60,102 nucleotides of DNA from NCBI GenBank assembly GCA_017551675.1, contig JAFZLC010000019.1:1-60102 (forward strand), given 5' to 3'. Under the pieces are notes generated by a model. The model had not been told where the DNA came from and did not search any database. It was given only the letters and a program-made list of their open reading frames with translations. The translations under genes and the position numbers were made by a program. Origin of the DNA: Paludibacteraceae bacterium (GTDB lineage Bacteria > Bacteroidota > Bacteroidia > Bacteroidales > Paludibacteraceae). Shown piece by piece: positions 2,922 to 53,727 of this stretch; positions within the stretch are counted from its first letter, which is position 1, and each line of letters begins with the position of its first letter.

Positions 2922-4277
2922 TTAAGCCAACTCCTTGCGCAGATAGTCTAATCCTTCACGCACAATACGTTGTGTCTCAATCTTTGAAGTACATACGAAT
3001 TCACACAAAGCAAAATCCTCTGGTGCCACTTCATAGATACCCAACTGCTCCATCTTATCAATGTCTTTTGCAATGATAGCCTTTACCAAGAACTCTGGAT
3101 AGATGTCCATTGGGAATACCTTATCATACTCACCAGACATGATGAAAGCACGCTGACCTCCATTCAAATTGGTATCTATATTATACTCTTTCTTACGTCC
3201 GAGCAACCATGAGAAATAAGAACGGCTGACACTGAACTTATTCAAACGAGGCATGATCCAACCCAACATTTCATCATTCTTGTCACCCTCAGGAATAACT
3301 GTGATTTGAGCATCAAAAGCGCCCAAGAATCCATCTGCTGGGATTTGTGTTCCCGTCAATGGATTACCACTAATGTAACGTACATTGTCACCTACGATGT
3401 TGTTAGCTACAATGTTACTGATACATTCACCTACAGTCATCTTGTAATAAGCAGGATTCTTAACACTTGCACCATTCAATACAATTGAGCGAGCAAAACT
3501 GATCTGACCCGTCTTAAATGCAGCACCAATCATAGCTACATCCAACGCGTTGATAGTCCATACGATATCGCCCTTATTGATTGGGTCAATGTGATGAATC
3601 TGTACACCAACATTACCTGCAGGGTGAGGACCTAAGAACTGATGGATTTCAACACCCTTCGTATGTGTATACAAATTAGATGAAACCTCAGCATTGATAC
3701 CCACATGAATCTTACCTTTGGTCAATTTGGCCAACGCATCAATTCCCAATTGGAAATCCTCTTCACGACCTACCAAAAGGTATTCGTAATTAGGTGCCAA
3801 TGGAGCGGAATCAAATCCAGAGATAAAGATTGCCTTCGGACAGTCATTTGGATCTGCGATTACATCATACGGACGTTGTTTGATGAAGGCAAAGAAACCT
3901 GCATTTAACAATGTCTCTTTCACATTCTCTGGTGTCATTTCAGAAGGACGACCCTTTGGAAATGATTCAGAAGTGAACTGACGATCTGATTTCAAACGAA
4001 TGTCTAGTACCTTTCGTTTGTCTCCTCTGTTCACAGCGAGAACCTCACCGCTGACAGGAGAAACGAATTTTAATTCTGGGTTCGTTTTGCTATAAAACAA
4101 AACGGTCCCGACCTTCACTGCATCTCCCTCATGGACAACCACTTTGGGTTTTATGCCGTGAAAATCATCCGGTCTGACTGAAAACAAGTCAGAAGCTTCT
4201 GCTTTCGCAGAAACTTCCTGAGCTTTTCCTTTCAAATTGATGTCTAGACCTTTTTTAATTCTAATCACCTCAGACAT
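2922..4277 (-). CDS. nqrA: Na+-translocating NADH:quinone reductase subunit A
   Basis: NqrA, 451 residues, is the peripheral cytoplasmic-side subunit of Na+-NQR. It begins with MSEVIRIKKGLDINLKGKA, the typical start of the family, and has no membrane helix. The PKVVVHEGDAVKVGTVLF segment followed by KFVSPVSGEVLAV is the lipoyl/barrel-sandwich-like region shared by NqrA and RnfC. It is the first nqr gene and starts 30 bp after lpxA with no obvious terminator between. I therefore infer that nqrA-E can be co-transcribed with the lipid A genes upstream. Confidence 0.95.
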   Translation of the reverse strand: MSEVIRIKKGLDINLKGKAQEVSAKAEASDLFSVRPDDFHGIKPKVVVHEGDAVKVGTVLFYSKTNPELKFVSPVSGEVLAVNRGDKRKVLDIRLKSDRQFTSESFPKGRPSEMTPENVKETLLNAGFFAFIKQRPYDVIADPNDCPKAIFISGFDSAPLAPNYEYLLVGREEDFQLGIDALAKLTKGKIHVGINAEVSSNLYTHTKGVEIHQFLGPHPAGNVGVQIHHIDPINKGDIVWTINALDVAMIGAAFKTGQISFARSIVLNGASVKNPAYYKMTVGECISNIVANNIVGDNVRYISGNPLTGTQIPADGFLGAFDAQITVIPEGDKNDEMLGWIMPRLNKFSVSRSYFSWLLGRKKEYNIDTNLNGGQRAFIMSGEYDKVFPMDIYPEFLVKAIIAKDIDKMEQLGIYEVAPEDFALCEFVCTSKIETQRIVREGLDYLRKELA

Positions 4278-43681: not shown

Positions 43682-44722
43682 ATGCACAATAGAGGAAGAA
43701 ATTTTTGGCATTTGATGGCCATTATTACAATGATTTTTTGGGGCACGAGTTTTGTATCAACCAAAATTCTGCTCGATTATGGTTTTTCATCCATATTTAT
43801 TTTCGTCGTACGGTTTATATTCACCTATTTTTTATTGTTGGTGTTATCACACGACATGATGTTCTCGCAGAACAAGAAAGATGAATTTCAACTGTTTTTA
43901 GGTGGACTGATGGGTGGCACACTCTATTTCTGGCTAGAAAATACTGCTCTCTCCAACTCTCCTTCATCAAACGTTTCTCTTCTTGTGTGCACGAGTCCGT
44001 TGATCATCTTGATCATCGTCAGTTTAATATTTAAGAAAGAGAAATTGAAGAAAAGACAAGTGGCTGGATCATTGCTCACCTTTCTCGGAATGGTTCTCGT
44101 TGTATTAAATGGCCATTTTTATCTGAAATTATCTCCCAAAGGAGACTTATTGGCATTAGGTGCATCGCTAGTATGGGTCATCTACTCCATCAGTGTGAAG
44201 AGATTACACAAAAAATACTCCACCCTTTTCATCACAAGAAAAGTCTTTTTCTACAGTTGTCTGACAGCAATACCCTTGCTTCCATTAGACGACGCAGTCA
44301 TCCCATGGGAGAATTTTTTAATACCCTCCGTGATCATAAACTTCCTATTGCTGACACTTTTCTCTTCTCTTTTTGGGTATTTAGTTTGGAACCTAGTACA
44401 AAGGGAACTCGGAGCTGTATTGGCCTCCAACTACATCTATTCGATGCCGTTGATTACAATCATCACCGCAGTAATCGTATTAGACGAGCAAGTGACATGG
44501 ATAGCTCTTATCGGTGCATTCGCCATTGTAACCGGAATGGTGTTAGCAGAATATAACGGGAAGAAGGAACCGCATCGGGATTATAATCTACAGAAACAAT
44601 ACCACGTGTTAACAGAATATAACGGGAAAAAGAAACAGCGTAAGGATTATAACCTACAAAAACAGCACCACGTGTTAGCTGAACATAACGGGAAAAAGAA
44701 ATCAATGTCAGAAAAGGTGTGA
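43682..44722 (+). CDS. EamA/DMT-family transporter with C-terminal tandem repeats
   Basis: A 346-residue inner-membrane protein with about ten helices in two EamA repeats: MIFWGTSFVSTKILLDYG at the start, NTALSNSPSSNVSLLVCTSPLIILI, LLALGASLVWVIYSISVKRLHKK, and VLASNYIYSMPLITIITAVIVLDEQVTWIALIGAFAIVTGMVLAEY. Such transporters export metabolites or drugs; the substrate is unknown. The last 60 residues are unusual: a 22-residue unit (VLAEYNGKK...YNLQKQ.H) occurs two and a half times, derived from the end of the last helix. Confidence 0.88.
   Translation: MHNRGRNFWHLMAIITMIFWGTSFVSTKILLDYGFSSIFIFVVRFIFTYFLLLVLSHDMMFSQNKKDEFQLFLGGLMGGTLYFWLENTALSNSPSSNVSLLVCTSPLIILIIVSLIFKKEKLKKRQVAGSLLTFLGMVLVVLNGHFYLKLSPKGDLLALGASLVWVIYSISVKRLHKKYSTLFITRKVFFYSCLTAIPLLPLDDAVIPWENFLIPSVIINFLLLTLFSSLFGYLVWNLVQRELGAVLASNYIYSMPLITIITAVIVLDEQVTWIALIGAFAIVTGMVLAEYNGKKEPHRDYNLQKQYHVLTEYNGKKKQRKDYNLQKQHHVLAEHNGKKKSMSEKV
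44540..44701 (+). repeat. 66-bp tandem repeat in the EamA gene
   Basis: Copies at 44540-44605, 44606-44671 and a partial at 44672-44701, each starting GTGTTA(G/A)C(A/T)GAA(T/C)ATAACGGG. The unit is a multiple of three and keeps the frame. It is absent from the family's usual architecture as I know it. Confidence 0.85.
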
Positions 44723-44993: not shown

Positions 44994-45776
44994 ATGAAAA
45001 AAGTTTCAGTAAAAACAAGATCTCTTATAAGAAAGGGAATTGCATCATTGTTATCAGCAATGGGATTTGTCACGTTGCACGCAGAAGAAAAAAAGATTGA
45101 TTCTGTCGAGCCTTTTGATCGTGACACAATCAAAGAATTCAATGGAAACGAAACAATCGTTTTGTATGGCTGTCCATACGCTGACTACAAATTCACGGGA
45201 CATGTTATTGACAAACATGGCAATCCACTAAACAATGTGGAAATTCAATTTGACATGTGCGAAGGAGAAGCAATTGCAAAAGCCACATCAGACGAAAACG
45301 GAGACTTCAAAGTGGAATACACATATGTTCCTTGGTGCAACATAAAGATATCTGCAAAGAACGATTTCTCTGCTGCTTATGATTCTATTTCAAAAGAAGA
45401 TATTGAGAGAGAAATTGTACCACCAACAAACGACATATGGTTAAATTATGGCGTATATAGCAAAGATTTAACCATTATTCTAAACGATAAGGGTGAATTA
45501 GGCAAAATCATATTCAACAGCACAGCAAACATCACTGATGCTAATGCTGAAAAAGTCCTATTGTTCTCAAACCCTGTAGAAAATTATTTGTGGTTCAACA
45601 TGGACGGTGCAGAAGATGCCAATGTTACTATTTATAATTTCAACGGAGAAAAAGTGATGAGCGCCTTCATTTCAAACGGAAGCAATCTTTACGTAGGTGA
45701 TCTTAAGAGTGGAAATTACATATTGACTGTCATTTCCAACGACAAAAAATACGTTGCTAAATTCATAAAGAAATAA
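44994..45776 (+). CDS. Radical SAM-associated exported protein with type IX secretion-like C-terminal domain
   Basis: A 260-residue exported protein, candidate partner of the radical SAM enzymes downstream. The N-terminus MKKVSVKTRSLIRKGIASLL resembles the rSAM/lipoprotein-system partners, but the lipobox cysteine is missing: the hydrophobic stretch ends GFVTLHAEEK, giving an ordinary signal peptide. Residues about 58-90 are LYGCPYADYKFTGHVIDKHG..., the family core followed by a carboxypeptidase-regulatory-like beta domain. The last 75 residues (LFSNPVENYLWFNMDG...VTIYNFNGEKVM...KSGNYILTV...KFIKK) match a type A C-terminal sorting domain. A strong terminator separates it from the enzyme gene. 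Whether it is modified is inference. Confidence 0.72.
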   Translation: MKKVSVKTRSLIRKGIASLLSAMGFVTLHAEEKKIDSVEPFDRDTIKEFNGNETIVLYGCPYADYKFTGHVIDKHGNPLNNVEIQFDMCEGEAIAKATSDENGDFKVEYTYVPWCNIKISAKNDFSAAYDSISKEDIEREIVPPTNDIWLNYGVYSKDLTIILNDKGELGKIIFNSTANITDANAEKVLLFSNPVENYLWFNMDGAEDANVTIYNFNGEKVMSAFISNGSNLYVGDLKSGNYILTVISNDKKYVAKFIKK

Positions 45777-45797
45777 GATTAGCACACATTTTAACAC

Positions 45798-45836
45798 AAA
45801 GGGTGTATCAAAATATGGATTTTGATACACCCTTTT
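45798..45836 (+). terminator. Perfect 16-bp-stem terminator between partner protein and radical SAM gene
   Basis: AAAGGGTGTATCAAAA (45798-45813) and its exact complement (45820-45835) flank the loop TATGGA, ending in TTTT. It lies 21 bp past the stop of the exported protein and 20 bp before the radical SAM ATG, so read-through would be needed for the enzyme unless another promoter exists. Confidence 0.85.
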
Positions 45837-45856
45837 AACTCTATAAACGATAACAC

Positions 45857-46942
45857 ATGGAGAATCCAAAAAAAATTCCATTAAAAAAAAGAATTGCATT
45901 AAAATTATTCGATATATATCGCCACAACGTAACCAAAGAACATAAGTTAAATTATATTTTCTGGGAATGCACCTTACGTTGTTCGTTAAACTGCCTACAT
46001 TGTGGCAGTGATTGTCGTCAATCTTCTGATGTCAACGACATGCCTGTCGAGGACTTCATCAAAGCCATCAAGCAAATCATGCCCATCGTCGACCCCCATC
46101 ATACGATTGTCGTCATCACTGGTGGAGAGGCTCTGGTTCGAAAAGATTTGGAACAAGCCGGACGTGAACTCTATAACCTTGGGTTCCCTTGGGGAATCGT
46201 CACCAATGGTTATTTAATGACCCCAGAGAGAATGAATTCCCTACTTCAAGCAGGGATGCGTGCCTGTACGGTAAGTCTTGATGGACTGCGCGACTCGCAC
46301 AACTGGTTACGACAAAACGCACTCTCTTACGACCGTGCCATCAATGCCATCAAGATGCTGCCTAAAACAGATCTTGAATATGACGTCATGACTTGTGTCA
46401 ACAACCGAAACTTCGATGAACTTCCACAAATCAAGCAAATGTTAATCGATTATGGCATAAAGAATTGGAGAATAGCGACCATTTTTCCTATAGGAAGAGC
46501 TGCTCAAAATCCCGAATTGCAACTGTCTAACGAGAAATTCAAAGCCGTATTCGATTTCATCGAGGAGACAAGGAATGAGGGTAAAATACGAGTAAATTAC
46601 GGATGCGAAGGCTTCCTAGGGGATTATGAAAGCCGCGTCAGAGACAACTTCTTTTTCTGTCGCGCAGGAATCAATGTGGGCTCCATACTCGTAGATGGAA
46701 GCATCTCTGCTTGTCCCGATCTGAGAGACCGTTTTATTCAAGGCAACATCTACAAAGACAACTTTGCCGACGTATGGCAAAACAGATATCAAATCATGCG
46801 TGATCGTTCTTGGACCAAAACAGGCATCTGCAAGGACTGCAAATTCTTCAAACATTGTGAAGGAAATGGACTACATCTTCGAAACACAGAGACCAACGAA
46901 GTTGCCTTTTGTCATCTAAAAAGAATGACCGGAGAAAAGTAA
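45857..46942 (+). CDS. Radical SAM/SPASM enzyme, rSAM/lipoprotein system (copy 1)
   Basis: A 361-residue radical SAM enzyme. The [4Fe-4S] motif is CSLNCLHC (CxxxCxxC, about residues 42-49); SAM-binding GGE follows in VVITGGEALVRKD. The C-terminal SPASM-type region has cysteines in FFCRAGIN, SISACPDLRDRF, GICKDCKFFKHCEGN and VAFCHLKR, enough for auxiliary clusters. From memory it fits TIGR04133, a Bacteroidales family encoded next to small lipoproteins. By analogy with other SPASM enzymes it should modify a peptide, perhaps the neighbouring exported protein; the chemistry is unknown. A near-copy lies 1.5 kb downstream. Confidence 0.88.
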   Translation: MENPKKIPLKKRIALKLFDIYRHNVTKEHKLNYIFWECTLRCSLNCLHCGSDCRQSSDVNDMPVEDFIKAIKQIMPIVDPHHTIVVITGGEALVRKDLEQAGRELYNLGFPWGIVTNGYLMTPERMNSLLQAGMRACTVSLDGLRDSHNWLRQNALSYDRAINAIKMLPKTDLEYDVMTCVNNRNFDELPQIKQMLIDYGIKNWRIATIFPIGRAAQNPELQLSNEKFKAVFDFIEETRNEGKIRVNYGCEGFLGDYESRVRDNFFFCRAGINVGSILVDGSISACPDLRDRFIQGNIYKDNFADVWQNRYQIMRDRSWTKTGICKDCKFFKHCEGNGLHLRNTETNEVAFCHLKRMTGEK

Positions 46943-47041
46943 CGCAACGAAGTTCATTCTAAATTATTACATTTTGCATTGTCTCTTGTTCCCGTGAAGA
47001 TGAAACTCTATCAAAAAGAGTTCCGTTTCACAAATATTTTT

Positions 47042-47049
47042 TACTTTTG
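47042..47049 (+). promoter_or_regulatory. -7 promoter element of the second radical SAM module
   Basis: TACTTTTG matches TAnnTTTG. A half copy of the dispersed hairpin element begins 13 nt after it, the same spacing as at 32545 and 38428. Confidence 0.5.
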
Positions 47050-47062
47050 TTTCACAAACAGA

Positions 47063-47094
47063 AGGTGGGTCCTACAAATTCACCCCAAAAGTAT
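47063..47094 (+). repeat. Dispersed hairpin element, left-half copy (F)
   Basis: GGTGGGT pairs with ATTCACC, then CCCCAAAAGTATG, corresponding to the linker of the full copies (AAAATAGTATG). The coding sequence of the small partner protein starts 7 bases later, where the right hairpin would be. Confidence 0.65.
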
Positions 47095-47100
47095 GGAGAT

Positions 47101-47373
47101 ATGAGGAACTTTATCAGCAAAATTTTATTAATGATAATAGGCTTTTTAGGATGTTCTTATTCATCCTACGCATGCCACAAAGAGAAAAAAGATGCAACTT
47201 GCACGCAAAGTCAAGCAAAAGAGAAAATCAACAAGAACGATAAGATCAATTGTTTGTATGGCGCTCCAAGTTCAGACTTCAAGTCTGTTGAATCTCAACA
47301 AAACAAAAAGGAATCCGACAGCAAGAAAAAGGATGATTCTGAGTCGAAAAAGAAAAACGAGAAATCAAAGTGA
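47101..47373 (+). CDS. Short radical SAM-associated putative lipoprotein
   Basis: A 90-residue exported protein. The signal MRNFISKILLMIIGFLGC has a plausible lipobox (F-L-G-C), though further Cys residues at 22-28 leave the exact site open. It contains NCLYGAPSSDFKSVE, matching the LYGCPYADYK core of the larger partner at 44994, then stops short in a Lys/Ser/Asp/Glu-only tail. It thus looks like a partner reduced to signal, core motif and charged tail. It starts a module with the second radical SAM gene, 20 bp downstream, with no terminator between. An upstream TTG start is excluded by the promoter position. Confidence 0.68.
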   Translation: MRNFISKILLMIIGFLGCSYSSYACHKEKKDATCTQSQAKEKINKNDKINCLYGAPSSDFKSVESQQNKKESDSKKKDDSESKKKNEKSK

Positions 47374-47393
47374 TAACCGCAGCATAAAAAGAG

Positions 47394-48479
47394 ATGGAGA
47401 ATCCGAAGAAATTATCTTTGAGAAAAAAGATTGCACTAAAATTATTCGACACATACCGTCATAACATGGCAAAAGAGCACAAACTGACCTATCTTTTTTG
47501 GGAAAGTACGCTCCGATGCACGTTAAACTGTTTACATTGTGGAAGTGACTGTCATCAAATGTCTTCAGTAAAAGACATGCCAGTGGAAGACTTCATCAAT
47601 GCAGTCAAGCAGATTATTCCAATTGTAGACCCACACAAGACGATGATTGTATTAACAGGCGGAGAGGTACTTGTGCGCAAAGACATTGAACAAGCGGGCA
47701 TACAACTCTACAATCTCGGATTTCCATGGGGCATCGTCAGCAATGGCTTTTTACTGACGAAAGAGCGTCTCACATCACTACTCAACGCGGGTATGCGTGC
47801 TTGCACTATCAGTCTCGACGGACTAAAAGAATCGCACAACTGGCTCCGACAAAACGAACTCTCCTTCGATCGTGCTATTAATGCCATCAAGATGTTGCCA
47901 ACCACAGATTTGCGTCACGACGTCGTAACCTGCGTAAACAACAGAAACTTTGACGAGTTACCACAAATCAAACAACTGCTCATTGACTGTGGAATCAAAG
48001 AATGGAGATTATTCACCATATTTCCCGTTGGCAGAGCTGCCGACAATCCCGACTTGCAATTATCCAATGAGAAATTCAAAGCCGTATTCGATTTCATTGT
48101 CGAAACGAGAAAAGAAGGCAAGATTACTGTCAGCTATGGTTGTGAAGGATTCTTAGGCGAATATGAAGCACAAGTACGAGATCATTTCTTTTTCTGCCGT
48201 GCAGGCATCAACGTTGCCTCCATTTTAGCAGATGGCAGCATATCAGCATGTCCTGACTTAAGGAGTCGTTTCATACAAGGAAATATATACAAAGATAATT
48301 TTGCAGATGTATGGCAAAACAGATACCAAGTGATGAGAGACCGTTCATGGACAAAGACAGGCATTTGCAAAGATTGTGAATTCTTCAAGCATTGTGAAGG
48401 AAATGGTTTGCATTTACGAAACGAAGAGACCAACGAGGTGGCATTTTGCCATCTGAAAAGGATTACTGGAGAACAATAA
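47394..48479 (+). CDS. Radical SAM/SPASM enzyme, rSAM/lipoprotein system (copy 2)
   Basis: A 361-residue paralogue of the enzyme at 45857, gap-free against it and by eye about four-fifths identical. The radical SAM motif is CTLNCLHC, GGE occurs in VLTGGEVLVRKD, and all SPASM-region cysteines are kept (FFCRAGIN, ISACPDLRSRF, GICKDCEFFKHCEGN, VAFCHLKR). One cysteine just before the CxxxCxxC motif in copy 1 is Ser here. Both copies look intact, so each may be tuned to a different partner. It is preceded by the 90-residue lipoprotein and faces the third small partner gene convergently. Confidence 0.88.
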   Translation: MENPKKLSLRKKIALKLFDTYRHNMAKEHKLTYLFWESTLRCTLNCLHCGSDCHQMSSVKDMPVEDFINAVKQIIPIVDPHKTMIVLTGGEVLVRKDIEQAGIQLYNLGFPWGIVSNGFLLTKERLTSLLNAGMRACTISLDGLKESHNWLRQNELSFDRAINAIKMLPTTDLRHDVVTCVNNRNFDELPQIKQLLIDCGIKEWRLFTIFPVGRAADNPDLQLSNEKFKAVFDFIVETRKEGKITVSYGCEGFLGEYEAQVRDHFFFCRAGINVASILADGSISACPDLRSRFIQGNIYKDNFADVWQNRYQVMRDRSWTKTGICKDCEFFKHCEGNGLHLRNEETNEVAFCHLKRITGEQ

Positions 48480-48511
48480 TTCTCCAATAATCAGCATTAA
48501 AATCAACGGGA

Positions 48512-48724
48512 TTAATTGATGGATTCTTCCGTAACCTCCGTATCATTTATCGTTGAATCATAAGATTCAACATCAGACTTTTCTTCACTATGATGAGGTC
48601 GGTTTCTCTCTTCCCATTCTATATCTTCATCTCCACCATATTCGCATTTGCAAGAAGTGCAACTAATGCCAAACAACCCCAATAATGCAATTAATAATTT
48701 AATTTTAAATTGTCTTTTCTTCAT
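48512..48724 (-). CDS. Short radical SAM-associated putative lipoprotein, convergent copy
   Basis: A 70-residue protein on the opposite strand. MKKRQFKIKLLIALLGLFGISC is a signal with lipobox-like G-I-S-C, and then TSCKCEYGGDEDIEWEE follows; CEYG corresponds to the start of the LYG core of the other two partners. The remainder is an acidic Ser/Glu/Asp/Thr tail. Start choice: the promoter TATCTTTG on the minus strand (48772-48779) places the transcript start near 48765, so the ATG at 48769 is excluded; ATG 48724 or 48730 fits. The partner assignment is weaker than for the other two because the motif is truncated. Confidence 0.6.
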   Translation of the reverse strand: MKKRQFKIKLLIALLGLFGISCTSCKCEYGGDEDIEWEERNRPHHSEEKSDVESYDSTINDTEVTEESIN

Positions 48725-48847: not shown

Positions 48848-50653
48848 ATGCAGAAAAAACTAATACCACTTTTACTCGCAACAATGAGTGTTTCGGCTTA
48901 TGCATACGATTACTCTTCGTATTCGGCAGCCTATAGTAATTCAGATTATCGTGAAGCCTTAAATATGGGCTTGAAGTTCTTTGGTGGACAGCGTTGTGGA
49001 GACAGTCACAACTGGATGCTGGTCAACAACTCAGAGCTTCAAAAGAATAATGAAGTATCTTGTCACACCCAAGATGGCAAAGGTTCTGTCAATGGTGGCG
49101 GCAATGGCAACTACGATTTAACTGGAGGATGGCATGACTGTGGAGACCACATTAAAGTGGGTACGACAATGGGTTATGCCGCAGTATCTCTGCTTATAGC
49201 ATACGATGTGTGGCCAGAAGCTTTTCAAGACAATTATGACGAGGCTTACGGAGAGCCCAACCAAATTCCCGATGTGTTGGATGAAGTGAAATATGCAACC
49301 GACTATTTCATAAAATGCTTTCCAAACGACAATACGTTTGTCTATTATGTAGGTTTTGAGGGCGATCACAATGTATGGAAGACGTCTGCCAGACAATCGA
49401 AGGATAAAGTAGAAAATGGTGGTGACCCACGTCCCGTATGGACAGCGAGCGACAAAGGAGGTCCGCAAGCAGCCAACTATGCATCCGCATTGGCATTGAT
49501 GTCACTAAATTATCCAGACCAGTCATACAAAGAGTTGTGCAAGACATACGCCATCAAAGCATATAATTTTGCAAAGAAAAACAAGTCTGCACATGCAAGC
49601 ATTCCTATCTTTTATTCCAATCCTAATCAAGAATGGACGGATGAGTTTGCACTTGCCGCCATTCTGCTATACAGACTGACAGGTGAAACTCAATACAAGA
49701 CAGAAGCATTAAGCTACCTAAGTGGCAAATGGGAATCCAATTCACCATTAGCGTGGGACACAATGTCTGACTTTGCATATTACTACATCGTAAAGGATGA
49801 TCCAACAGCTAACAATGGACAAGGAGGAACATATCTAAGTTTCCTAGAAAAAAATGTTTATAGATTGCATATACAAGATCCACAAGAACCAAGGAGCAGC
49901 GATTCCTCTTGCTCTAGCAACGGATTCCCATATTACAAAAGCAACTGGGGTACCAACAAGCTAGCACTTGGAGGTGCTGTCGCTGCAGCTTTATATGCAA
50001 AACTTGCAGAAGATGGTGTTATCACAACAACAAAAGACATCAAAAAGGCGAAAAATTTCACCCTCAGAATCATTGATTATGTATTAGGTAAAAATGAATT
50101 CAACCATACCTTCTTACATGGATTTAAGGGTGATATGACCCACAAAATACACCACCGTAATGCCATGGGAAGAAATGACAATCCGCCAACCGACGAAAAG
50201 AACAAAGCAGAGTTTATGTTTGCCAGTGGCGGTCTGATTGGAGGACCTTCCTCCTATGGTCAATTTGGCAATGTTGTCGAAGGAGGTTCTAGTTATACGG
50301 AAACGGAAGGTGGATGTGACTACAACGCACCATTTGTGGCTGCCATGGCTAGTTTGGTGGCAGAAAAAGATCCTGTAGAATTTGTAGATGCACCAACAAT
50401 ACTATCCGACCGCTCATACATGGTCTATCCTACCCTATTTGATGACTATTTCATCATTGACATGATAGAACATGCCTATGAAAAGGAGGTGATTGCACAG
50501 ATCTATACAATTGACGGACAATTAATTCAAACATACGATTTGAAAAATCAAATGTCAACTATAGTTTATACAAACAATTATCCAACAGGTTTCTACATCG
50601 TAAAGATAACAGCCGATGGCAAGTCTGTTTCGTATAAGTTGGTAAAAAAATAG
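48848..50653 (+). CDS. Glycoside hydrolase family 9 cellulase with type IX secretion C-terminal domain
   Basis: A 601-residue secreted endoglucanase. Signal peptide MQKKLIPLLLATMSVSAYA. The GH9 catalytic domain spans about residues 33-515: REALNMGLKFFGGQRCG, LTGGWHDCGDHIKVG with the nucleophile-activating Asp pair, GFKGDMTHKIHHRNAMG with the substrate-binding His/Arg, and YTETEGGCDYNAPFVAAMASL with the catalytic acid Glu. There is no Ig-like or CBM module before it. The last 80 residues (YMVYPTLFDDYFII...QIYTIDGQLIQTYDL...PTGFYIVKITADGKSVSYKLVKK) form a C-terminal sorting domain, so export and surface attachment through type IX secretion is expected. It suggests beta-glucan use. Confidence 0.93.
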   Translation: MQKKLIPLLLATMSVSAYAYDYSSYSAAYSNSDYREALNMGLKFFGGQRCGDSHNWMLVNNSELQKNNEVSCHTQDGKGSVNGGGNGNYDLTGGWHDCGDHIKVGTTMGYAAVSLLIAYDVWPEAFQDNYDEAYGEPNQIPDVLDEVKYATDYFIKCFPNDNTFVYYVGFEGDHNVWKTSARQSKDKVENGGDPRPVWTASDKGGPQAANYASALALMSLNYPDQSYKELCKTYAIKAYNFAKKNKSAHASIPIFYSNPNQEWTDEFALAAILLYRLTGETQYKTEALSYLSGKWESNSPLAWDTMSDFAYYYIVKDDPTANNGQGGTYLSFLEKNVYRLHIQDPQEPRSSDSSCSSNGFPYYKSNWGTNKLALGGAVAAALYAKLAEDGVITTTKDIKKAKNFTLRIIDYVLGKNEFNHTFLHGFKGDMTHKIHHRNAMGRNDNPPTDEKNKAEFMFASGGLIGGPSSYGQFGNVVEGGSSYTETEGGCDYNAPFVAAMASLVAEKDPVEFVDAPTILSDRSYMVYPTLFDDYFIIDMIEHAYEKEVIAQIYTIDGQLIQTYDLKNQMSTIVYTNNYPTGFYIVKITADGKSVSYKLVKK

Positions 50654-51517: not shown

Positions 51518-51793
51518 TTGAACACGAAAGAAATAACATCCGAGATTCGCAAACGTCTGCAGATAGACGCAGAAACTGCAGATGCTTTGTTTGCTTCATT
51601 TACCAACTGTTTGAAAGAGGAAATGTTGAATGGCAATTCGTTGTCCATACCGGGTTTTGGCATATTTGAGGCTAGAAGAAAAAAAGAGAGAATATCCATC
51701 AATCCTACAACAAAACAAAGGCTACTCTCTCCGCCGAAACAATCATTAGCTTTTAAGGTAAGCGCGATTCTCAAAGACAAATTTAACAATTAG
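51518..51793 (+). CDS. HU/IHF-family DNA-binding protein
   Basis: A 91-residue nucleoid protein. The fold is clear: TSEIRKRLQIDAETADALFASFTNCLKEEMLNGNSLSIPGFGIFEARRKKERISINPTTK, with the arm region kept but divergent (RLLSPPKQSLAFKVS in place of the usual PAGK-containing end). The start codon is TTG (TTGAACACG); no ATG lies nearby in frame, and the protein would lose helix 1 otherwise. It is followed 5 bp later by the membrane-anchored HU protein, so the two may form a heterodimer. Confidence 0.85.
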   Translation: MNTKEITSEIRKRLQIDAETADALFASFTNCLKEEMLNGNSLSIPGFGIFEARRKKERISINPTTKQRLLSPPKQSLAFKVSAILKDKFNN

Positions 51794-51798
51794 AAGTT

Positions 51799-53727
51799 AT
51801 GAACGAGAAAAAAAGTTTACAGGACATTTTAGGAAATATTGCGGAAGAAGCTGGAGTAACAAAAAAACTCTCCGAAAATTTCTTGCGTACTCTTTTTGAG
51901 ATAGTAGAAGAAGCCCTCAACAAAGATGGAATCGCAAAAATCCCCAATATAGGCACATTCAAAATCATCGCCATTGAAGAACGTAAAAGCGTAAACGTTC
52001 AGGATGGTAGCGAAATGATTATTCCTGCTCACAAAAAAGTCTCGTTCGTCCCTGAAAAAAATTTGAAAGAAGAAATCAACAAACCTTATGCTCATTTGGA
52101 AACTTACGTTTTGAAAGATGACGGACCTGTAGATACAGACACAGATGACGATTTCGATGATGAATCAGAAGATGAAACTCCTATCAGTTCTTCCTCTTCT
52201 ACTGTTTTCGTCAACAATGTATCTACAGAGGTTCCTTCTCAAGACATTATCAACACTCCTATACAAGAGCCAATAAATACTTCTACACAAGAGCCTATCT
52301 ACACTCCTACTCAAGAGTCAAGCAACACTCCTGTCCAAGAGAAAAGAGAGCTCAAAGTGGAAGAACACATAAACACACCATACCAAGAAAACAACAATTC
52401 TTCTGCAATTGATGACAAATATGCATCATACATACAGGAGATTCCACTGAATACCAACAATTCTAACCTCTCTTCTAATATGGCTGACGAAAACACACTA
52501 CAAAACAACATTGAATCGAATACGAATCCGACCAACGAGTTGGGAAGTAACGAAACAAAATCCGATATTGTGGAAAATCCAATTCCACAGAGTGATCCAA
52601 TTGTTTCAAATCAACCTGAGGTTCCTTCCTACGAACCAGTTGAAACAGTTATCAATAGTTCGTCAGTCGAACCAGTAGTGAATAATCCTATTGTTGAGCC
52701 TACAACAGAGACTCAAACAAATAACTATAACCAGACAATCGGAGGAGAATCCTCCAACAACATACAAGAGGAGATTCCGAGTGCAAGTCAGACAGACATC
52801 TCAAGTACCACAGAAACACAAGAGCCAAACGTGGTAGAGACAACGCCAGAAGCACCTGCACAACAACCTACAAGCGAGGAACCACAAACTCAAAGTGCAG
52901 AAAACACACAAGAGAAAAAAGAGGAACCTGCTGAGACAAAAGCTGAAACTGCTGATGCTCAAGGAAAAGAGAATAAAGAAACTGCCGTTCCTGCACCAAA
53001 AACAAAAGCAGAAAGACTCAAAGAAGAGAAGAGACAGAAAAAATTGAAGAGACAGAAAGAGAGAGAAGAGATGAACGCCAAGAGTCGCAAATGGATTAAA
53101 TGGATGTTCATCGGATTAGCCATTGTTTTGGCGCTTCTGTTTGGAATAAAATATGCAATGGATCACAACATATTAGACAATTCCGCTAAAGAGCAGAAAA
53201 CAGAAGCTCCTGTAGCCAACACGCCAACTTCCAATGAAGGAGAAAAGGCAACTGCAGCAACAAGCGAAAACAGCGACAGTGTTGATGAAACGAGCAGTTC
53301 TGCTGCAACTACAGAAAATGAGGATAACCTTACCTCTCAAGAGGAGAATCAGGAAAGTGCCATCGATGACAATTCCGCATTCTCTTCAGATGCTGACACG
53401 CATACATTCGATCAAAGACTGATTGATTATATGAAGAAGGAGCATCCAGAAATCAAATTCCCTTCCAAGATGAAGATAAGAGAAGAATATGTTGTGAAAG
53501 AAGGAAGTCGATTAGCACAGATATCAAGAAACAATTTTGATAATGTGATGAACTTCTGGGGATATATCTATTTCTTCAATACAGATGTATTGTCAAGTCC
53601 AAGTGAAGTGAGATCAGGTATGACCTTGAAGATTCCTGATTTAGGAAATGAATTTGGAAATACTAAATCATCCAAGTGCAAAGCATTGGCTGACGAAATC
53701 AATGATTTAGCGCTTAAATTCAAATAA
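51799..53727 (+). CDS. HU-domain membrane protein with LysM-like C-terminus
   Basis: A 642-residue protein with four parts. Residues 1 to about 95 are an HU/IHF DNA-binding domain (LQDILGNIAEEAGVTKKLSENFLRTLFEIVEEALNKDGIAKIPNIGTFKI). Residues about 110-400 are a low-complexity linker rich in Asn, Thr, Glu, Pro and Gln, with a degenerate NTPxQE(P) repeat near 150-195. A Lys/Arg-rich coiled stretch precedes one membrane helix (WMFIGLAIVLALLFGIKYAM, about 434-453). The last part has a LysM-like fold (EEYVVKEGSRLAQISRNNF...LKIPDL, about 560-615). The positive-inside rule puts HU in the cytoplasm and LysM in the periplasm. Confidence 0.85.
   Translation: MNEKKSLQDILGNIAEEAGVTKKLSENFLRTLFEIVEEALNKDGIAKIPNIGTFKIIAIEERKSVNVQDGSEMIIPAHKKVSFVPEKNLKEEINKPYAHLETYVLKDDGPVDTDTDDDFDDESEDETPISSSSSTVFVNNVSTEVPSQDIINTPIQEPINTSTQEPIYTPTQESSNTPVQEKRELKVEEHINTPYQENNNSSAIDDKYASYIQEIPLNTNNSNLSSNMADENTLQNNIESNTNPTNELGSNETKSDIVENPIPQSDPIVSNQPEVPSYEPVETVINSSSVEPVVNNPIVEPTTETQTNNYNQTIGGESSNNIQEEIPSASQTDISSTTETQEPNVVETTPEAPAQQPTSEEPQTQSAENTQEKKEEPAETKAETADAQGKENKETAVPAPKTKAERLKEEKRQKKLKRQKEREEMNAKSRKWIKWMFIGLAIVLALLFGIKYAMDHNILDNSAKEQKTEAPVANTPTSNEGEKATAATSENSDSVDETSSSAATTENEDNLTSQEENQESAIDDNSAFSSDADTHTFDQRLIDYMKKEHPEIKFPSKMKIREEYVVKEGSRLAQISRNNFDNVMNFWGYIYFFNTDVLSSPSEVRSGMTLKIPDLGNEFGNTKSSKCKALADEINDLALKFK

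Follow-up and report, generated by a model that had tools for sequence, protein, structure and literature searches.

The PlpX-type spliceases are among the described systems closest to the locus reported here. They remove a tyramine equivalent from an XYG site, with a mass change of -135.0757 Da, and leave an alpha-ketoamide; MYG and LYG are the sites on which they act in nature, and the tested tags contain LYGLP and YGVVFP (as given in the part of PMC10533398 on which we draw). An excerpt of PMC11002830 places PlpX in the IPR026482 subclass, and protease inhibition by splicease products is cited from Scott et al. 2022 in the portions of PMC10373908 and PMC11117315 used here. The families TIGR04133 (radical SAM/SPASM enzymes) and TIGR04134 (lipoproteins) stand in NCBIfam (June 2026) as 'hypoth_equivalog' models with no reaction stated. 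Searches by name found no paper naming either of them in the literature covered, and the literature on spliceases, spliceotides and radical SAM lipoproteins, judged by titles and the starts of abstracts and with Scott et al. 2022 outside this coverage, held none on the pair. Here we describe a locus in a stretch of 60,102 nucleotides (the window: contig JAFZLC010000019.1 of the Paludibacteraceae bacterium assembly GCA_017551675.1), in which two TIGR04133 enzymes, E1 and E2, stand together with three exported proteins, P1, P2 and P3, each carrying a Tyr-Gly (YG) site. This arrangement of paired enzymes and exported YG partners is real. In our opinion its best overall explanation is that TIGR04133 works like a PlpX splicease, which we consider probable by analogy.

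The preliminary description of this DNA, made from its letters alone, spoke of a gap-free paralogous radical SAM/SPASM pair and gave the names TIGR04133 and TIGR04134 for the families involved. The NCBIfam profiles bear out both points. E1 and E2 score 567.2 and 566.4 bits against TIGR04133 (cut-off 425), they are 82% identical in an alignment without gaps, and no other protein of the whole genome exceeds that cut-off. Radical_SAM and SPASM Pfam domains lie over the cut-off in both enzymes. The radical SAM motif CX3CX2C (C42, C46, C49) and the SPASM cysteines of the family (C268, C286, C325, C328, C334, C352) are intact, all of them being invariant in 13 aligned TIGR04133 members.

The partners are more diverse. 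P1 matches TIGR04134 at profile positions 26-104 of 150 with 33.2 bits (E 4.6e-8), below the cut-off of 39.8; P2 and P3 give no match to this profile at E up to 1 and no convincing family match in NCBIfam or Pfam. Hence the proposed profile searches succeeded for the enzymes, gave a sub-threshold match for P1 and failed for P2 and P3; a complete lack of partner matches, which was to count against the earlier proposal, did not arise. The C-terminus of P1 (residues 191-260) scores 47.5 bits against the sorting domain TIGR04183 (cut-off 23), which makes P1 a type A cargo of the type IX secretion system (T9SS), and its signal has no lipobox Cys; P1 does, as was claimed, combine a beta domain with a sorting domain and a lost lipobox. 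P1 itself fits the seed pattern of our own beta-domain profile, so its score there (1.1e-25) is circular and was not used. The motif shared by P1 (LYGCPYADYK) and P2 (LYGAPSSDFK) is exactly as first described, and the linked partners as a set present XYG as LYG, LYG and EYG. The equal spacing claimed for P3 is wrong: its Tyr29 lies 7 residues past Cys22, while the YG of P1 lies 28 residues past Ala30 (a guessed cleavage site) and that of P2 28 past Cys25 or 35 past Cys18. Cys25, not Cys18, is conserved in three aligned relatives of P2, and it may be the lipid-bearing residue. The P3 block CEYGG.ED.EWEER is conserved in two related loci, L044 and L045. All three partners look like real genes, because each has a conserved counterpart in L044, the sister locus, and nonsynonymous divergence (dN) is below synonymous divergence (dS): dN 0.098 and dS 0.29 for P1, 0.091 and 0.46 for P2, 0.29 and 2.0 for P3. 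In the structural model of P1 the predicted local distance difference test (pLDDT) is below 50 for residues 26-58 and only 68 overall, and the first strand starts at residue 62, which would put the YG (58-59) at the end of a flexible linker.

Strong evidence comes from relatives of the locus. An alignment of 13 enzymes was used to scan genome contigs, and the best 80 of at least 588 confirmed places were taken; 29 further loci are the best matches in genomes of the window's order. Together these are 109 loci besides the window, a sample that leans to close relatives. The enzyme was recognized by pattern in 104 of these 110 sets (L082, L111, L030, L033, L035 and L038 were left out). An exported open reading frame (ORF) with YG lies within 1.5 kb in 98 of the 104 loci, and one with YGxP in 94, counts that include duplicate enzymes. 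Exported ORFs with YGxP make up 135 of 530 near the enzyme versus 8 of 402 far from it (Fisher p 4e-27). Because this count selects for YG, upstream ORFs were also tested with no such selection, for the 103 distinct enzymes of the 109. A close upstream ORF on the same strand is present for 96 of the 103, and 89 of these 96 ORFs have a signal peptide. YG follows the signal start in all 89 (YGxP in 78), while shuffling predicts 39.4 of 89 and downstream control ORFs have YG in 17 of 30. Before de-duplication, an upstream ORF within range was missing for 7 of the 109 enzymes, and among the 102 upstream ORFs there were 8 without a signal, with L039 and L069 truncated where the contig begins.

A hidden Markov model (HMM) of the beta domain that excludes the motif found 96 ORFs, 91 of them with YG in the 45 residues ahead of the domain; in four of the remaining five the domain begins at most 3 residues from the frame start, and the frame does not reach the stretch where the motif would lie. 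Within 1.5 kb there are 308 signal-bearing ORFs; 91 of them match a beta-domain HMM and 49 others have YGxP, and together they account for 95 of the 104 loci. Partners can be very small: in eight loci (L031, L034, L040, L041, L045, L049, L060, L104) proteins of 61-110 amino acids consist of a signal, a spacer, YGxP and little else, and in L031 and L040 the YGxP lies at most 10 residues from the C-terminus. Fibrobacter partners, at the other extreme, hold up to seven YG per protein. In 45 distinct proteins outside the beta-domain group, a set chosen for YGxP and including at least four bystanders, there are 111 YG against 27.7 expected. The X, the residue after the Gly and the proline all vary, and only Y and G are fixed near the site. 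These data strongly support the idea that the enzyme reads or alters the Tyr-Gly segment itself: YG is present in 89 of 89 upstream partners, and many partners hold little else. The contrary outcome, partners of orthologous enzymes lacking YG, was not encountered. It had also been asked whether YG is the only shared block; YG is indeed shared by partners across loci, yet the signal peptide contains another. From these sequence patterns we regard modification of the YG site as very probable.

Two partner types deserve a separate remark. One Fibrobacter partner (L077, position 2239) contains VPAYGVPSTSSS repeated at least four times. Two others (L084, position 4570; L091, position 696) have signals that end VAAQYG.P with no lipobox Cys, and cleavage after VAA would leave a mature N-terminus one residue ahead of the Tyr.

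As for the second block, 58 of 97 partner signals have LG[FL] no more than 14 residues ahead of the lipobox Cys, versus 2 of 55 other signals of the same loci, the latter including some membrane proteins. P1 keeps this segment as LLSAMGF despite the absent lipobox Cys, and when 11 beta-domain partners, selected by YGxP and not by their signals, are aligned, the Gly24 of P1 is found in every one. Modification must precede export, because radical SAM enzymes are cytoplasmic, and we think it fairly likely that the enzyme uses the signal peptide as its recognition leader.

The partners are not confined to the locus. Two further TIGR04134 lipoproteins, both over the cut-off, lie on other contigs of the genome and carry EYGCPHADY and LYGTPYADF. 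A genome search for the extended motif returned 8 places, namely P1, P2, these two lipoproteins and four others in frames unlike exported partners. The unlinked lipoproteins suggest, as far as sequence can tell, that the enzymes act in trans. Of 295 genomes sampled from the order, 61 have TIGR04133 above the cut-off and 70 have it at E up to 1e-50 (a match in two pieces, in G245, is counted in this tally). TIGR04134 at E up to 1e-8 occurs in 40 of the 295: in 39 of the 70 with the enzyme and in 1 of the 225 without. TIGR04133 enzymes are also found in Fibrobacter contigs and on a Treponema plasmid.

The likeness to PlpX extends from substrates to enzymes. On a Nostoc plasmid an enzyme scoring 853 bits on TIGR04103, which we take to be the family equivalent of the IPR026482 subclass, adjoins a Nif11 precursor that ends GGRGSIALYGLPPELF and contains ALYGLPPELF; this end and the P2 site share the pattern YGxPxx[DE][FYL]. 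Beside a more distant PlpX relative in Agathobacter, an unannotated upstream ORF of 35 codons ends LFGPVMYGTGVRM. In a tree of 31 enzymes, which does not include the Pleurocapsa PlpX, TIGR04133 (17 rows) groups with a PlpX clade (5 rows) at 78/80; two alternative pairings that involve the TIGR04053-like rows are disfavoured (approximately unbiased test, p 0.021 and 0.023; 0 of 1000 bootstraps). A signature G[FY][LYF][GS]x[YF]E just before the first SPASM Cys is present in 17 of 17 TIGR04133 rows, 4 of 5 rows of the PlpX clade and 0 of 9 others. A 26-row tree lacking five distant rows has three clades only, too few to bear on sisterhood, and was set aside; the rank of NCBIfam scores was likewise ruled out as proof of a PlpX relationship, since several SPASM families score nearly equally.

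By analogy with PlpX, E1 and E2 would act in the cytoplasm, ahead of Sec export, on the X-Tyr-Gly of export-bound proteins, with the signal peptide and its family-specific LGF-type motif serving as leader. They would cut the Tyr out of the backbone as tyramine and leave a reactive ketone (an alpha-ketoamide), a reaction for which we see a better case than for any other. Modified P2 and P3 and the two unlinked partners would then reach the surface as lipoproteins, and P1 through type IX secretion. The likeliest use of such products would be as surface-displayed covalent protease inhibitors, X (Leu, Leu and Glu here) setting the specificity; that they act in protease inhibition at all is a possibility we put forward with considerable doubt.

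A number of observations weigh against a splicease. The support of 78/80 for the grouping with PlpX is not significant. We noticed the pre-SPASM signature by eye and relaxed its patterns later; stricter forms occur in 17 of 17 TIGR04133 rows and 3 of 5 PlpX-clade rows, or in 15 of 17 and 1 of 5. On TIGR04103, E1 and E2 score 132.6 and 128.2 bits, which do not reach the cut-off of 725; for E1 TIGR04103 is no better than TIGR04053 (133.6), and for E2 both TIGR04053 (139.5) and AhbD (129.8) rank above it. The SPASM CX3C step of TIGR04133 is without its Cys (CEGNG), and the family has an additional invariant Cys250 that is mostly absent there in the five PlpX-clade rows, the Agathobacter enzyme having a Cys near that position; because of these two changes the auxiliary cluster of TIGR04133 may be ligated differently. 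No match to PqqD or to a RiPP recognition element (RRE; RiPP, ribosomally synthesized and post-translationally modified peptide) was found among the small proteins of the locus in NCBIfam and Pfam, searched with no RRE-specific profile, so that a partner like PlpY is not seen. The DUF1843 partners of PlpX relatives have YA or YM besides YG, and no clear YG peptide stands alongside a PlpX-related enzyme of Tropicibacter. Nearer to home, P3 has no proline after its YG. The genome G227 (94% complete) has no TIGR04133 at E up to 1e-50, merely weak radical SAM matches, and still keeps a YG partner with a T9SS tail. Finally, the genome G129 has the enzyme and a TIGR04134-type protein without YG (L172, positions 1840-2211, G129:C146; KMPHADYIFKGYV), alongside other partners with YG.

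For reference, the G227 protein (L169, about 3050-3390; G227:C35:12552-12887) consists of a TIGR04134 domain, YGAIETHY and a T9SS-like tail, and the Tropicibacter enzyme, encoded on a plasmid (L130, 2674-6365), is directly followed by genes annotated as a trypsin-like peptidase and an M23 metallopeptidase.

Could the enzymes perform another reaction on YG? SPASM enzymes carry out crosslinks, epimerisation and oxidation, and a Tyr-centred crosslink (cyclophane or ether), an epimerisation or an oxidation of Tyr or Gly would agree with the altered cysteines described above. In fold searches with E1, the model of which has a single N-terminal helix ahead of the barrel, the nearest folds include thioether-forming and formylglycine-forming enzymes; no splicease is named among the matches listed, which excludes nothing. 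On the contrary side, no residue beyond Y and G is fixed near the site, so no obligate crosslink partner is visible, and the closest-looking substrate motif we found belongs to a PlpX-family system. We consider another reaction rather unlikely, but it is the most serious competitor. Improbable, in our opinion, is the view that YG(x)P is a docking element only, some other part such as the signal peptide or lipobox being modified, or merely the start of a folded domain. The signal peptide does bear a motif of its own and the site abuts the first strand in the P1 model, but YG persists in partners without a beta domain, is multiplied in Fibrobacter and can stand close to the very C-terminus, and P1 keeps the site without a lipobox. 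A mere neighbourhood, in which the lipoproteins are not substrates of the enzymes, agrees with the fact that no biochemical link was found and that partners occur away from the enzyme too; given the near-complete linkage and co-occurrence, and an E1 subclade that tracks the sorting-domain type of partner, we give it hardly any credence.

A PlpX-like splicease hence remains our preferred explanation. Sequence comparison establishes which families are present, that partners share a YG site and their signals a motif, that enzyme and partner occur together, and that E1 has a two-module history. Taken in full, the proposal is a system that displays genetically encoded electrophiles on the cell surface. 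In Bacteroidota, Fibrobacterota and Spirochaetota, TIGR04133 enzymes would excise tyramine from XYG sites in a wide range of exported proteins that are unrelated to one another, both in cis and in trans. The Sec signal peptide would serve them as a RiPP leader, and ketoamide warheads would end up outside the cell on lipoproteins and T9SS cargo. In this breadth it is tentative, and we doubt it about as readily as we believe it.

The preliminary description counted the duplication, the minimal partners and the sorting-domain partner as new, but none of them is peculiar to this locus. Sorting-domain partners appear in L044, where the Pfam cut-off is exceeded, in L051, where it is not, in L062 as judged from an alignment with P1, and in G227 by eye. 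Enzyme pairs occur in L044, L087 and L116, and a single enzyme stands in the locus of, for example, Phocaeicola coprocola DSM 17136 (L115) and Labilibaculum manganireducens (L064). The E1 clade (99/98) includes the enzymes of L051 and L062, each the sole enzyme of its locus and beside a P1-type partner. E2 is nearest to the second enzyme of L044 and then, by path length and not as a supported clade, to that of L045, where P2- and P3-like partners occur. In our reading the locus is not a fresh duplication but combines two modules of greater age, (P1-E1) and (P2-E2-P3). Duplication as the main novelty is ruled out, since E1 groups with the single enzymes of other loci, E2 is nearest to different ones and pairs occur elsewhere; nor is there any sign of recent gene conversion between E1 and E2, nucleotide identity being 0.68-0.82 in 12 of 12 segments of 90 bases. 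All three features recur across relatives. The specific addition of our analysis is the chemical prediction based on PlpX.

The features are collected in Table 1; the coordinates and frames given earlier for the two enzymes and three partners proved correct on re-reading.

Table 1. Features of the paired-enzyme locus (positions in the window)
Feature	Position	Strand	Remarks
Partner P1	44994..45776	+	260 aa; signal without lipobox, disordered linker, LYG site, TIGR04134-type beta domain, type IX sorting domain
P1 signal segment LLSAMGF	45048..45068	+	LGF-type motif, lipobox Cys absent
P1 core site LYGCPYADYK	45162..45191	+	genome pattern match 45165-45188
P1 T9SS C-terminal sorting domain	45564..45773	+	residues 191-260
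E1, TIGR04133 radical SAM/SPASM enzyme	45857..46942	+	361 aa
Partner P2	47101..47373	+	90 aa; signal, LYG site, charged low-complexity tail
P2 core site LYGAPSSDFK	47254..47283	+	sequence and genome pattern match
E2, TIGR04133 radical SAM/SPASM enzyme	47394..48479	+	361 aa; E1 paralogue
Partner P3	48512..48724	-	70 aa; lipoprotein-type signal, CEYG site, acidic tail
P3 site CEYGGDED	48623..48646	-	YG without following proline

Rfam and tRNA searches of the window gave no match. Ahead of the locus, an EamA transporter gene (43682-44722) has an imperfect repeat at its end, beyond the second EamA domain (44546-44701), made of two copies and a partial third of (A/T)E(Y/H)NGKK...DYNLQKQ.HVL. On the other side the locus adjoins a GH9 glycoside hydrolase with a T9SS tail (48848-50653); ORFs that are similar as judged by their N-termini (601 and 590 aa) hold the same place in L044 and L045. 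Further on (51518-53727) there is a tandem pair of genes with HU/IHF-type DNA-binding domains, the second of which (642 aa) has a long low-complexity stretch after the HU domain.

The need for attention to this family is easy to illustrate: the enzyme is common, being over the cut-off in 61 of the 295 genomes and present in Fibrobacter contigs and on a Treponema plasmid, yet the family model is without a reaction. The comparison with PlpX reduces the question to one prediction, a loss of 135.07 Da at a named dipeptide. If it is true, lipoproteins bearing ketoamides would be widespread on gut and rumen bacteria, the signal peptide would have a second role as RiPP leader, and there would be an explanation for the Fibrobacter proteins rich in YG; the family might also be a source of small enzymes that introduce ketones into proteins.

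How, then, does the locus stand among known systems? It agrees with the TIGR04133/TIGR04134 pair in that both enzymes are far over the cut-off, P1 matches the beta-domain region and has a YGCP site, and unlinked TIGR04134 lipoproteins exist; it differs in that P1 is a sub-threshold, non-lipoprotein member with a T9SS tail and that P2 and P3 have no TIGR04134 match. The GDL-motif radical SAM maturases (TIGR03913), found with DUF1843 proteins, fall in the PlpX clade of the tree and have small partners in which Tyr-Gly, Tyr-Ala or Tyr-Met stands close to the N-terminus, but these partners (5 proteins) have no signal peptide by eye and their Gly is not invariant. With the PlpX-type splicease, represented by Pleurocapsa PlpXY, the locus shares the radical SAM/SPASM architecture, an adjacent XYG substrate, the pre-SPASM signature and a grouping in the tree that is favoured though not significant. 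No Nif11 or NHLP leader or PlpY-like gene is seen in it, its enzymes stay below the TIGR04103 cut-off, and its proposed substrates are Sec-exported lipoproteins or T9SS cargo, in which the signal peptide apparently occupies the position of the leader.

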